Positions 4,226 through 8,190 of a DNA stretch of 38,444 nucleotides are shown in pieces. The translations under genes and the position numbers were made by a program. Positions within the stretch are counted from its first letter, which is position 1. Each line of letters begins with the position of its first letter. The notes under the pieces are model-generated. The model was not told the origin of the DNA. It searched no databases and worked only from the letters and a program-made list of their open reading frames with translations. Source of the DNA: Sphingobium sp. (lineage in GTDB: Bacteria > Pseudomonadota > Alphaproteobacteria > Sphingomonadales > Sphingomonadaceae); the NCBI GenBank assembly GCA_017984895.1, contig JAGNYO010000021.1, positions 1 to 38,444 of the forward strand, in the 5' to 3' direction.

Positions 4226-4654
4226 ATGTCGATAATTTCTGAGTTCAAGGATTTTATCGCGCGCGGCAATGTCATGGATCTGGCGGTCGGCGTCATCATC
4301 GGTGCGGCGTTCGGCAAAATTACGACTTCTTTGACCGAGGACGTTATCATGCCGGTGCTGGGCTGGCTGTTCGGCGGGTTCGATTTTTCACAGCATTTCA
4401 TCCGGCTGGGCGCGCTTCCTGCTGGCTTCAAGGGCAATCCCGCCAGCTATGCGGACCTCAAGGCCGCCGGTGTTGCCATGCTGGGCTGGGGCCAGTTTCT
4501 CACGGTCATCATCAATTTCGTCATACTCGCCTTCATCATCTTCCTGATGATCCGCGCGGTGAACCGGATGATGGCGCCCAAGGTAGAGGCTCCCACTGGC
4601 CCGAGTGAAGAGACACAGTTGTTGCGGGAAATCCGCGATTCGCTTAAGAAATAG
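4226..4654 (+). CDS. mscL: Large-conductance mechanosensitive channel MscL
   Basis: A 142-residue inner-membrane channel that opens under membrane tension to release solutes during hypo-osmotic shock. The start [19 protein letters not shown] is followed by transmembrane helix 1 ([17 protein letters not shown]), the periplasmic loop ([14 protein letters not shown]...), helix 2 ([25 protein letters not shown]) and a C-terminal helix ending [13 protein letters not shown]. The start at 4226 matches other MscL N-termini and has GGGGAG 9-10 nt upstream; an in-frame ATG at 4208 would add six residues but overlaps that ribosome-binding site. Confidence 0.95.
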
Positions 4655-4675
4655 AGGCTGGAGCAGGATCTGGCC

Positions 4676-4704
4676 TTTTCCTCGCCATAATCCACCCCTA
4701 TATA
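4676..4704 (+). promoter_or_regulatory. Possible ssrA promoter
   Basis: TATATA at 4699-4704 would be a good -10 box. TTTTCC at 4676-4681, 17 nt upstream, is a weak -35. It precedes the first stem of the tmRNA precursor by about 7 nt. Confidence 0.35.
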
Positions 4705-4710
4705 GATGCT

Positions 4711-4980
4711 GTCGGTTTCGGCCGACTATGGCGATAAATTGTGCCGTGTAATAGATGCAGCGGACCCGGGGGCAGTACCCGGCGGCTCCACCATATTCCC
4801 TGATCGCTCAGGGCATCTGACGGGGCCGAACCAGGATCGACGTGTATTCAAAGGCGGTGTTTTCGCTCGGGCTGAGTAACCCGATCAAGGCTCAAAACCG
4901 ATAAGTGCCAACGATAACGAAGCACTTGCTCTTGCAGCGTAATTGAGGGCCTCACGGCCTGACATTACCCTAACAGAACG
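4711..4980 (+). ncRNA. ssrA: Permuted two-piece tmRNA
   Basis: tmRNA rescues stalled ribosomes by acting first as an alanine tRNA and then as an mRNA for a degradation tag. The gene has the circularly permuted order of alphaproteobacteria. The acceptor piece comes first: a hairpin at 4711-4726, a T arm with stem CCGGG/CCCGG around GGCAGTA, and CCA ending at 4793. A short spacer of about 28 nt, presumably removed, follows. The coding piece starts at 4822 with GGGGCCG. GGGGCCG pairs with CGGCTCC (4783-4789) over 7 bp, with the G3-U70 wobble used by alanyl-tRNA synthetase. The tag frame at 4907-4942 reads ANDNEALALAA then TAA. The 3' limit is uncertain: the hairpin array downstream may belong to the same RNA. 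Confidence 0.93.
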
Positions 4981-4982
4981 CG

Positions 4983-5148
4983 GCTGGGCCAGCCGGGCAA
5001 CAGAATGGATTCCAGCGGCCGCCGGAGGGCCGGGCAACAGAACCTCCGGCACTTATCTCTCAAAAGCGCGTGGCACCGGGCAACAGAAGCCACCCACCCA
5101 CCTCCTCCGGTTCGGGCGGAGGGCCGGGCAACAGAACCTCCGGCACTT
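4983..5148 (+). repeat. Tandem array of four hairpins with an invariant 14-nt loop
   Basis: Four stem-loops show the loop GCCGGGCAACAGAA (ACCGGGCAACAGAA in the third) at 4992-5005, 5029-5042, 5075-5088 and 5123-5136. The stems differ but each is self-complementary: CCA/TGG continued by GCTGG/CCAGC (4983-4991 and 5006-5016), CCGGAGG/CCTCCGG (5022-5028 and 5043-5049), GTGGC/GCCAC (5070-5074 and 5089-5093), CGGAGG/CCTCCG (5117-5122 and 5137-5142). Units 2 and 4 also share a 32-nt direct repeat (5023-5054 and 5117-5148). Different stems around a fixed loop indicate selection on RNA structure. No terminator separates the array from the tmRNA tag, so it may be the 3' part of the tmRNA coding piece, or a separate or attached small RNA. 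Confidence 0.8.
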
Positions 5149-5404
5149 TCCACGTATCCTGATATATCGCTGCCCGCACTGCCTGGCCGTAGTTCAAGGC
5201 CGTGGCCGTCGCGCCACACGCATGAGCGCTTTTTGTGCACTGCACCGCAATTCACAAATCTGCAACAAAAGCGAAACCTCGCTGTCATGAACCCCTTCTA
5301 GGGGCATCGCCGAGGGGCAGGAGAACAGGCTCTTCCTTCGGCTTCCAGTCGATTCGCGACTGCCGATCCGATGCAATCAGGTTCGATATAAAGGGATATC
5401 ACCC
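5149..5404 (+). other. Non-coding leader upstream of the TonB receptor gene
   Basis: About 250 nt without a convincing gene between the hairpin array and the receptor gene. It contains a small CCCC/GGGG hairpin at 5292-5304 and ends in the receptor's ribosome-binding site AAGGGA. No clear rho-independent terminator or riboswitch is recognisable, so read-through from ssrA into the receptor gene cannot be excluded. Confidence 0.4.
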
Positions 5405-7822
5405 ATGAAGCGCTCAGGCTCCATTTTCGCGCTGCCACTGGCGGCGATCGCAATTCTTCAGGCTGGTGCCGCATTTGCCGCTCCCGCCGATGCCGCCTCA
5501 GACGCTGCCGCTGCGGATGCTGCGGCCGATGCGCCAGACCGGGATACGACCGGCCTCGTCGACATCGTCGTCACCGCCACCAAGCGCGAGACGAGCTTGC
5601 AGAAAACCCCGATCGCCATTGCGGTGATGGGTGAGGAGGACATCAAGAAGCGCCACGTGCAGAGCCTGCTCGATCTGGCTGACGGCGGTGTGCCATCGCT
5701 GCGTGTTGCCACTTACGAGTCGCGCCAGTCCGCCCTCACCATCGGTATTCGCGGCATTGTGCCGGGCGATGCCAACCAGCCCGCGCGCGAGCAGGGCGTC
5801 GGTGTCTATCTCGATGGCGTATACCTTGGCCGCCAGCATGGCCTCAACGCCGCGCTGTTCGACATTGAGCGCATCGAGGTGCTGAAAGGCCCGCAGGGCA
5901 CATTGTTCGGACGCAACACCGAGGGCGGCGCGCTCAACATCGTCTCGAAGGCGCCGAGCGGCGAGTTCGAGGGCCGGGCGACTGCGGGCGCGGGCAACTA
6001 TGGTTCGTATAATGGCGCGTTGCACCTCGACCTGCCGGCATTTGCCAATATCTCGGTTAAGCTCGATGGCGTGATCGACCACCAGGACGCCACCACGAAC
6101 AACCCGCTTGAGGGCCAGTTGGGCTGGAATTATCACCACCGGATCGGTGGCCGCGTTTCGGCGCGCTGGGAGCCAACGAGCAATTTCACGGCTGATATCT
6201 CGTTCGACAAAAGCCAGGACGAAAACACGCCATTCTATAGCCAGCTCATCAACTTCAATCCCAATGGCTATGGCGTATTCACGCAGTCGGAATTGGCCAG
6301 CCTCGTGAATGCCAGCGGCGGCATCATCAGTTCCACCACTTTCAACTCATTCCAGAAGGTCGCGCCCCTCGCTCCTGCGGTGGTCGTCTCGGGCAAACGG
6401 ATGACTGTGGCGGATATCGCCGTGCCGCAGCAGGCCAGCGTGGACAAGGCGATGGGTTTCTCGGCGGTGCTCAAATGGCAGCCCTCGGACAATGTCGAAC
6501 TGCGCTCCATTACCGCGTGGCGCACCGTCGATGCGGAGCAATGGGATAACTCGGGCGGTGCGCACCGCAATCCGTTCCTGCCAAACGCGCCCTTCAGCCG
6601 CTACAGCCTGTCGTTTCTGGACCAGGACCAGTTCAGCCAGGAGCTGCAAATCGTCGGCAGGATAGGGCGCCTCGATTATGTGGCGGGCCTGTATTACTAC
6701 AATGAAAGCGCCGGTGAAATTGCCGCTACGCCGTCCACTAACAAGTGGAACGCGACCGGCACGGCCTACACCATATTGGATGCCCTGACATGGCAGCCCG
6801 CCAACCTGAGCATCGCCCGCGCCACGCGCGCCGACTCCAAGAGCTACGCCGCCTTCGGCCAGCTCACTTATGGTATAACCGATGCGATCCGCATCACGGC
6901 GGGCGGCCGCTTCACACGCGACGAAAAAAGCGGCAATCTCTACAAGGTCAACAACGTGGCCACGAACTTCCCGTTTGTGTTCAAGGGCGACCGGGTCGAT
7001 CCGCTGATCATCGCGGCGTGGGATGCCGCGCAAGGCGTGAACCTGTATGCCAAATACGCGACAGGCTATCGTGCGGGCGGCGCCAGCTCCCGTTCGCTGA
7101 CCTTCCGCTCGTTCGGCCCGGAAAAAGCGTATTCCTATGAAATCGGCGCCAAGACCGAATTCCTGGATCGCAAGGTGCGCCTGAACGTCGCTGCCTATAT
7201 CATGGACCGCAAGGACACGCAGTTCGACTTCGACTTTTACGTTCCCTCGGGTTCGACCTTCCGCCACAATCTCGAAACGATCAATGCCGGCACCACGAAA
7301 ATCCGCGGCCTCGAAACCGACCTGACAGTGCGGCCGATCGAGGGGCTTACGGCGAATCTGAGCTATGCCTATACGCATGTGAAAGCGCCCTCCGCGCCCA
7401 ACCCCCTGCTGCCAGGCAACCCGATCCAGCCTCTGTTCGTTGTCTATACTCCGAAGCACGCGGCATCTGGCGGAATTGATTATGCCATGCCAGTTGGCGG
7501 TGGCGACACGGCGGTCAAGCTGCACATCGACGGGAATTATGCCAGCGCGGCCTATACGTTCGACAACGAAGCGGTGAAGGCCGAGAAGAGCTTCATCGTC
7601 AATGCCCGCCTCTCGCTCGCGGATATCAAGATGGGCGGTAATGGTCAGAAGCTGACTGTTTCGGTTTGGGCGCGCAACCTGTTAGACGAGGAGCACATCT
7701 ATCGCCGCTCCAACGCCAACAGCACCCCGCAGGATGGCGTTGATTACCGCACCGTGATTGGCGATTATGCCAACTTCAATGCGCCCCGCACCTGGGGCAT
7801 AGAGGGAACGGTTTCCTTCTGA
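5405..7822 (+). CDS. TonB-dependent receptor
   Basis: An 805-residue outer-membrane receptor. A signal peptide ends around AGAAFA, followed by an unusual Ala/Asp-rich linker of about 25 residues and a TonB-box-like IVVTATKRE. The plug domain contains VGVYLDGVYLGRQHG and IERIEVLKGPQGTLFGRNTEGGALNIVSKAP. The beta barrel fills the rest, with SYEIGAKTEFLDRKVRLNVAAY and a C-terminal WGIEGTVSF ending in the aromatic residue used for barrel assembly. The plug wording resembles the large group of sphingomonad receptors for plant or aromatic compounds and siderophores. The substrate cannot be told from sequence. AAGGGA precedes the ATG by 8 nt, and a terminator follows at 7847. Confidence 0.92.
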   Translation: MKRSGSIFALPLAAIAILQAGAAFAAPADAASDAAAADAAADAPDRDTTGLVDIVVTATKRETSLQKTPIAIAVMGEEDIKKRHVQSLLDLADGGVPSLRVATYESRQSALTIGIRGIVPGDANQPAREQGVGVYLDGVYLGRQHGLNAALFDIERIEVLKGPQGTLFGRNTEGGALNIVSKAPSGEFEGRATAGAGNYGSYNGALHLDLPAFANISVKLDGVIDHQDATTNNPLEGQLGWNYHHRIGGRVSARWEPTSNFTADISFDKSQDENTPFYSQLINFNPNGYGVFTQSELASLVNASGGIISSTTFNSFQKVAPLAPAVVVSGKRMTVADIAVPQQASVDKAMGFSAVLKWQPSDNVELRSITAWRTVDAEQWDNSGGAHRNPFLPNAPFSRYSLSFLDQDQFSQELQIVGRIGRLDYVAGLYYYNESAGEIAATPSTNKWNATGTAYTILDALTWQPANLSIARATRADSKSYAAFGQLTYGITDAIRITAGGRFTRDEKSGNLYKVNNVATNFPFVFKGDRVDPLIIAAWDAAQGVNLYAKYATGYRAGGASSRSLTFRSFGPEKAYSYEIGAKTEFLDRKVRLNVAAYIMDRKDTQFDFDFYVPSGSTFRHNLETINAGTTKIRGLETDLTVRPIEGLTANLSYAYTHVKAPSAPNPLLPGNPIQPLFVVYTPKHAASGGIDYAMPVGGGDTAVKLHIDGNYASAAYTFDNEAVKAEKSFIVNARLSLADIKMGGNGQKLTVSVWARNLLDEEHIYRRSNANSTPQDGVDYRTVIGDYANFNAPRTWGIEGTVSF

Positions 7823-7878: not shown

Positions 7879-7921
7879 GTGGGCTTGCCTTTGGCGCATT
7901 GCCGGTTATTAAACCGCTTGC

Positions 7922-8092
7922 GACAGGTTCCCGGAGACGGGATGAAATGGGAAGTCAGAAGCGGAGTATTCCGTAAGCTGGCGCTGCCCCCGCAACTGTG
8001 ACCGGCGAGCCGCCGCCTCAATATGCCACTGGGCCACAAGCCTGGGAAGGCGAGGCGGATGGTGATGACCCGGAAGCCAGGAGACCTGCCTG
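7922..8092 (+). promoter_or_regulatory. Cobalamin (AdoCbl-type) riboswitch
   Basis: All conserved blocks of the cobalamin riboswitch appear in order: CAGGTTCCCGG (7924), GAAATGGGAAG (about 7944), GCTGCCCCCGCAACTGTGA (7983), the GCCACTGGGCCACAAGCCTGGGAAGGCG region, GGTGATGACCCGGAAG, and the B12 box GCCAGGAGACCTGCC (8076-8090). CAGGT at 7924-7928 pairs with ACCTG at 8084-8088 to close the aptamer. Binding of the coenzyme is expected to shut off btuB translation or transcription. Between the aptamer and the start codon, a hairpin TGACGG/CCGTCA (8151-8156 and 8169-8174) lies just before the ribosome-binding site and may be part of the expression platform. Confidence 0.95.
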
Positions 8093-8190
8093 ACGCGGTC
8101 GTTCTTCAACCGGGCGGGGTGTATCGGATGAACGGGGGATTTTCCTCGCGTGACGGCGTGTGTGTCAACCGTCATGCCAGGGAGAATCCT

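Follow-up and report, generated by a model that had tools for sequence, protein, structure and literature searches.

Structure of the Locus

The window, meaning the whole stretch of DNA analyzed, is one complete contig of 38,444 bases (G000:C21) from a Sphingobium assembly of 2.44 Mb in 105 contigs; the estimated completeness of this assembly is 100%, and 24 genomes of the same genus measure 3.4–6.6 Mb. Its forward strand carries ssrA, matched by the Rfam family alpha_tmRNA (RF01849) over the whole model and well above the cut-off of 50 bits; RF04321 also matched, at 4730–4942, in the Rfam scan of the window. As read from the gene order, the gene is permuted, with the acceptor piece first and the coding piece starting at about 4822, and its product is predicted to be a two-piece RNA. 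The tag located by ARAGORN, ANDNEALALAA, ends in a degradation signal, as expected of an alpha tmRNA. Downstream of the tag, at 4981–5142, lie four units with (G/A)CCGGGCAACAGAA, whose stems differ in sequence yet pair. The features are as follows, S1 and S2 denoting the two helices of a unit.

4672–5014, + strand: match to alpha_tmRNA (RF01849), permuted, two-piece gene; 230.3 bits, E 1e-65, model positions 1–355
4711–4793, + strand: acceptor (tRNA-like) piece, with CCA at 4791–4793; ends inferred from the tRNA-like fold
4822–4828, + strand: 5′ end of the coding piece, GGGGCCG, pairing (by eye) with 4783–4789
4866–4894, + strand: PK1-like pseudoknot upstream of the tag, CGGG/CCCG and TGAG/CTCA, assigned from position
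4907–4942, + strand: tag reading frame ANDNEALALAA with stop (ARAGORN)
4981–5015, + strand: unit 1 (PK-a); S1 4981–4984/4992–4995, loop 3 4996–5005
4989–4991/5006–5008 and 4985–4987/5012–5014, + strand: interrupted S2 of unit 1, from the 51-sequence alignment
5016–5050, + strand: unit 2 (PK-b, the terminal pseudoknot of relatives); S1 5016–5019/5029–5032, S2 5021–5028/5043–5050
5033–5042, + strand: loop 3 of unit 2; covariation, covariance model score of the unit 48.6 bits
5070–5093, + strand: unit 3; hairpin S2 5070–5074/5089–5093, loop 5075–5088; 31.4 bits
5107–5142, + strand: unit 4; S2 5117–5122/5137–5142, possible S1 5108–5111/5123–5126; 37.4 bits

A preliminary description of this DNA had reported four consecutive hairpins with near-identical letters, and these are indeed present: CCGGGCAACAGAA occurs exactly at 4993, 5030, 5076, and 5124, preceded by G, G, A, and G, respectively, together with the named stems. 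With up to two mismatches it has six matches in the window against 1.1 expected, a number reached by 1 of 100 shuffles. The spacings of the units (37, 46, and 48 nt) change the reading frame, and the array is therefore not a coding repeat. That the hairpins are structured RNA belonging to the coding piece of the tmRNA is borne out by covariation (see below) and by Rfam and ARAGORN, which put the tag just upstream. The check proposed with alpha_tmRNA gave a match ending at 5014, so that the end of the model (ACCuGGCAACAGAA) falls on unit 1. A plain energy fold of 4835–5165, by a method that cannot draw pseudoknots, was no better than shuffles (z −0.26). Further along the window, a long open frame at 5405–7822, TonB-dependent receptor-like by eye, lies just upstream of a cobalamin riboswitch at 7908–8107 (125.2 bits, Rfam).

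Pseudoknot Evidence for Units 1 and 2

The repeated letters had been described as a constant loop of 14 nt. In unit 2, CGGC (5016–5019), one base before the stem, pairs with GCCG (5029–5032), with which the supposed loop begins; the first 4 nt of that loop thus form one strand of a pseudoknot helix with a partner upstream of the stem, and the full unit is therefore an H-type pseudoknot. The S1 letters of relatives include CGGT/ACCG, GGCT/AGCT, GCGT/ACGT, GGGC/GCCT, GGGT/ACCT, and others. In an alignment of 51 sequences, taken from 78 distinct two-unit loci and aligned without structure, 98.0% of 1031 cells were paired for both pseudoknots together. Two-sided changes were found in 172 cells vs. 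a shuffled mean of 40.3, and none of 500 shuffles, which ignore the relatedness of the sequences, reached any of the five measures used; when the alignment was slid by 1–3 columns, which keeps relatedness, only 31–53% remained paired. All four S1 pairs covary in unit 2 and two of four in unit 1, where S1 is paired in 100% of the 51 sequences and where, by eye, the window has CGGC/GCCG vs. CGGT/ACCG in 16 of 16 same-genus loci. Column 13 is paired with column 47 in 76.5% only, and the two are probably not a pair throughout.

A second test fixed S2 first from its own pairing and then sought a 4-bp S1 partner, with 200 shuffles for comparison. Its input was 177 loci with an orientation and an exact motif, from which distinct units with an S2 of at least 4 bp were used, the window excluded. 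This test replaced a MAFFT alignment of 171 units, which misplaced S1 where S2 lengths differed and had left out 17 weakly oriented loci, 5 duplicates, 3 loci lacking the motif, and the window. Among single units, the S1 partner lay 2 nt before S2 in 56/70 (best shuffle 34); among second units, it lay 2 nt before S2 in 44/70 (best shuffle 21) and 1 nt before it in 23/70 (best shuffle 18). Other lengths of loop 1, from 0 to 10, were found in at most 3/70, except length 1 in single units (10/70). For the first units (n = 19) no offset beat the shuffles (e.g., 9/19 at offset 4, where the best shuffle also gave 9), a consequence of the near-invariance of their S1 letters; their S1 sits at varying offsets because their S2 is interrupted.

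With two crossing helices that both covary, units 1 and 2 are pseudoknots, common to other sphingomonads, and they are very likely structural. The idea that an array of loops had replaced the pseudoknots of this tmRNA is thereby refuted, since S1 and S2 of both units covary. Loop 1 of unit 2, just 1 nt vs. an S2 of 8 bp, is tight for an H-type pseudoknot, and the outer S2 pairs may open. Owing to its interrupted stem, unit 1 has a weak covariance model score (17.4 bits, with E 0.081 for a search of the window). In unit 3 an S1 partner was looked for and none was found. The possible S1 of unit 4 (CGGU/GCCG) has a loop 1 of 5 nt and one U-G pair, and a rival hairpin, 5104–5109/5117–5122, competes for the 5′ arm of S2; S1 matches at offsets 3–8 turn up elsewhere too (7 among 70 single units). 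A degenerate copy previously noted at 4967–4978 is a chance likeness: AACAGAA is found there in 1 of 90 loci with at least two units, namely the window itself.

Copy Number Among Relatives

One terminal unit closes the coding chain in the alphaproteobacterial tmRNAs read, and a tandem pair is common in Sphingomonadales. In a class-wide sample (of 143 tmRNA genomes, 30 taken as loci, with L235 not orientable, and 40 as regions), one exact copy was present in 65 of 69 counted loci, two copies in 2, and none in 2. The two-unit pattern was found in 260/396 genomes of the order, some by chance; among the matches listed, those of G065, G081, G100, G103, G131, and G077 and the second of G338 are not tmRNA-like. 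All 16 same-genus loci read have two units (30 genomes of a 41-genome set, which includes the 24 same-genus genomes, came as loci). The comparison confirms the earlier proposal of an expanded array of one module. As for whether the array is simply ordinary tmRNA structure, units 1 and 2 match the two-unit sphingomonad form, and units 3 and 4 are extra.

The four units of the window are the highest number of closely spaced copies in the 396-genome sample of the order, where at least three closely spaced exact copies occur in four genomes (G000 with four; G220, G341, and G377 with three). Extra copies at wider spacing escape this pattern, and locus L053 totals four copies. Class-wide, a three-copy pattern was matched in 3/385 genomes (G000, G587, and G757), the matches in G587 and G757 being simple repeats by look. 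Among the matches listed, three copies at the tmRNA occur in Sphingorhabdus (two MAGs), the Sphingomonas MAGs MGR_bin56 and MGR_bin343, UBA2369, and two uncultured Sphingomonadaceae. Five copies with a period of 31–32 are present at the tmRNA of a Pelagibius sp. MAG (L162, NZ_JANQKD010000052.1), a genus that we take to lie outside Sphingomonadales; the four added copies are without S1, and a 7-bp stem is kept in three. A second, weaker alpha_tmRNA match (72.8 bits) was seen beside the main one in G511 (C5:288509–288849).

Probable Multiplication of a Terminal Module

The units are almost certainly tmRNA pseudoknot modules, and the array is probably the coding-chain 3′ end of a two-piece alphaproteobacterial tmRNA whose usual terminal H-type pseudoknot has been copied several times over. 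It represents a familiar structural element in an unusually high number of copies and no novel class of RNA. The most likely history is birth and death of 3′-terminal modules, permitted by the free 3′ end of the coding chain. The module would have been duplicated repeatedly at the DNA level, which could be tolerated because the permutation left a free 3′ end, where added modules need no reconnection to the tRNA-like part. Units 1 and 2 would fold the chain and its end, the role of PK2–PK4 in one-piece tmRNA, their A-rich loop 3 presumably lying against S1, and the terminal pseudoknot of a two-piece tmRNA may serve to cap the free 3′ end. More speculatively, units 3 and 4 might be retained in the RNA, where their extra structure would hinder degradation by 3′ exonucleases.

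Unit 1 may have arisen as a copy of the terminal unit, as its common letters suggest, or may instead stand in place of an older pk2, since the available text on Caulobacter tmRNA draws it with pk2 and pk3 (PMC1168896). Sources differ, as far as their accessible parts go, on the number of pseudoknots in ordinary alpha tmRNAs, so that either origin of unit 1 could apply: coding pieces are described as typically having only PK1 and PK2 (PMC3985003), pk2 and pk3 are named in Caulobacter (PMC1168896), and a review gives two-piece tmRNAs fewer pseudoknots than one-piece tmRNAs (PMC3968760).

Origin and Decay of the Added Copies

By homology to two-unit relatives, the coding chain could end after unit 2 (~5055), and units 3 and 4 may lie outside the mature RNA. 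That they are present in it and of some use is an idea we hold tentatively, at somewhat less than even odds. A reading of similar, sub-even standing makes them neutral duplicates in a 3′ trailer: the chain would end after unit 2, the rest would be trimmed, and the copies would have no effect.

Unit 4 looks like a recent copy, judged from the 32 bases (5117–5148) that are identical to 5023–5054 of unit 2, and this fits neutral duplication; its upstream flank differs from that of unit 2. Unit 3 is flanked by AAAAGCGCG; certain relatives, L102 and L314 among them, have these letters ahead of unit 1, a position at which the window itself reads AGAACGCG. Counterparts of unit 3 occur at the same place in G220 and two Sphingomonas MAGs, and of 392 genomes of the order two, G000 and G220, matched a stricter unit 3 pattern. 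CACTT, the ending of terminal units, also closes the third units of L314, L115, and L137.

Loss of helices also points toward neutral copies. An S1 partner (4 nt, within 8 nt of S2) is present in 42/42 core units vs. 1/28 downstream copies, the sole exception being unit 4 of the window, so most added copies amount to simple hairpins or remnants; S1 is missing in the other 27. Among ten short-spaced third units the 5-bp stem is kept in five, reduced to 4 bp in L186 and 2 bp in L180, and absent in three, and this loss or reduction in half of them speaks for weak selection. Copy number differs among close relatives, all 16 same-genus loci having two units, and the Pelagibius run is an independent one; both favor duplication without effect. 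Against it stand the five third units that keep a 5-bp stem, in five genomes, with different letters (GTGGC/GCCAC, GAGGC/GCCTC, GGAGC/GCTCC, TGAGC/GCTCA, and GGGGC/GCCCC), from which it follows that pairing in the stem persisted through changes of its letters. Structured 3′ repeats would, moreover, be expected to stop trimming exonucleases early.

A different kind of extra copy was seen at a wider spacing. The 3′ half of the terminal unit (S1′-loop 3-S2′) recurs 82–97 nt downstream, after a stretch with its own hairpins, in L050, L051, L053, L055, L063, L187, L189, L190, L215, L305, and L299, and also in L292, which lies outside the order. Eleven of 13 such copies repeat the S1′ letters of the terminal unit, without an adjoining S1 partner, and L053 has two of them, 97 nt apart. 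Rfam at the gathering threshold, run on 8 of the 12 loci with these copies, returned no family except tmRNA. In L013 (G026), two decayed copies (GGCAACAAAA and GGCAACACCA) follow the terminal unit.

Conservation of Loop 3

The conserved part of the unit is loop 3, RGCAACAGAA; S1 and S2 both vary. In 118 tmRNA loci picked by the Rfam model rather than by the motif (window included, one further locus not being orientable, and 19 loci hand-picked, 18 of these for absence of the two-unit pattern), GCAACAGAA was exact in 115 and TCAACAGAA was found in 3. The near-constancy of loop 3 calls for a partner, as had been proposed from the fixed loop; the nearest candidate would be the unit's own helix, through its minor groove. 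Extra copies lacking S1 carry the loop letters as well, which would speak against this candidate, but they were located by those very letters and so do not count.

CsrB/RsmZ-type titrating RNAs carry repeated hairpins with a constant loop. By analogy, the array might be a multivalent site whose loop 3 is read by ribosomal protein S1, SmpB, an RNase, or an RNA chaperone, a reading that we consider unlikely. It has in its favor that loop 3 is the least variable part while both helices change, that the stem is kept in many extra copies lacking S1, and that ribosomal protein S1 contacts the pseudoknot ring of E. coli tmRNA, according to the accessible text of a review (PMC3968760). One or two copies suffice in relatives, however, and unit 1 of some sphingomonads varies in its loop, with GTAACAGAA, TCAACAGAA, or GCAACAGGA. 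The extra copies were found by their loop letters, and the constancy of the loop in copies lacking S1 is therefore no evidence, being built in by the search. The own genome has no copy off ssrA; where a CsrB/RsmZ-type RNA would be an independent RNA outside any housekeeping RNA, all model matches of this genome are at ssrA. The likeness is one of resemblance only, the constant part here being loop 3 of a tmRNA pseudoknot. It is likewise improbable that the hairpins without S1 are kept for displaying (R)GCAACAGAA to a trans-acting partner. If they were, some sphingomonads would have turned their tmRNA coding chain into a multivalent binding scaffold, and unit copy number would tune tmRNA stability or recruitment to ribosomes.

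Copies Elsewhere in the Genome

With up to one mismatch, the 14-mer has seven sites in the own genome: the four of the array and three lone one-mismatch sites on other contigs, at which no flanking stem was seen by eye. The covariance model of the unit matched the own genome at 5008, 5067, and 5102 only, all at ssrA; the suggested scan for arrays away from ssrA thus found none in this genome. Each of 40 relatives gave a single model match, placed at ssrA by visual comparison of positions, except that G035 had a weak second one (E 0.01). The search used strict filters, with 150 candidates scored per genome, and yields one unit in relatives that have two; it therefore under-counts. Plasmid matches came from 11 records, each with a query coverage below 80%; all fall within 4695–4870, a part conserved among tmRNAs, without reaching the array. 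A phage origin was rejected at the DNA level, no match being found among phages.

A separate small RNA co-transcribed with ssrA is a very unlikely account of units 3 and 4. The flank AAAAGCGCG before unit 3 and the CACTT ends of the third units in L314, L115, and L137 mean that unit 3 could be cut out as a unit. A scan of the + strand at 4400–5600 found no promoter-like site and no intrinsic terminator, though, and model matches off ssrA are absent from the own genome.

It is most improbable that the array is a dispersed genomic repeat, a coding repeat, or an assembly artefact, as the 32 identical bases of units 2 and 4 and the 105 contigs might suggest: the own genome holds no dispersed copies, either by the model or as a 14-mer with a stem, on which ground a dispersed repeat was rejected; the frame is not kept across spacings of 37 and 46 nt; stems and spacing differ among the units, which is hardly the product of mis-assembly; and related third units occur in other genomes.

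Relation to Known tmRNAs and Significance

The preferred reading, a multiplied terminal pseudoknot, places the locus among the two-piece alpha tmRNAs (RF01849), with which it shares gene order, tag, tRNA-like domain, and a terminal GGCAACAGAA element. Unlike described two-piece tmRNAs, it has four modules after the tag, all with the same loop letters. Two-piece alpha tmRNA is functional in Caulobacter, where, in the text available, it is described as a two-chain RNA with small pseudoknots (PMC1168896). The same text supplies a parallel, the pk4a/pk4b of cyanobacterial one-chain tmRNA, in which one pseudoknot is replaced by two small tandem ones (PMC1168896); it differs from the array in lineage, in belonging to a one-chain RNA, and in having two copies. 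No description of such an array was found in the accessible parts of the tmRNA literature searched, and the alignments of the tmRNA website may show one.

Post-tag pseudoknots are described, in the available parts of two papers, as serving folding and maturation more than tagging and as exchangeable in E. coli (PMC3968760, PMC3985003), the sources cited there being Nameki (2000) and Wower (2004). The tmRNA pseudoknots are also said in one of them to wrap round the beak of the 30S subunit (PMC3968760). Two-piece tmRNAs are credited in a review with fewer pseudoknots than one-piece ones (PMC3968760); in the present lineage a single pseudoknot module has been brought to two copies, locally to three or four, with five in one Pelagibius MAG, and most of the extra copies miss one helix. 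The result is a natural copy-number series for asking what post-tag pseudoknots do, and a test case for whether an RNA with a free 3′ end can lengthen by duplicating its modules. The near-constancy of loop 3 amid variable helices adds to this a concrete, testable puzzle.
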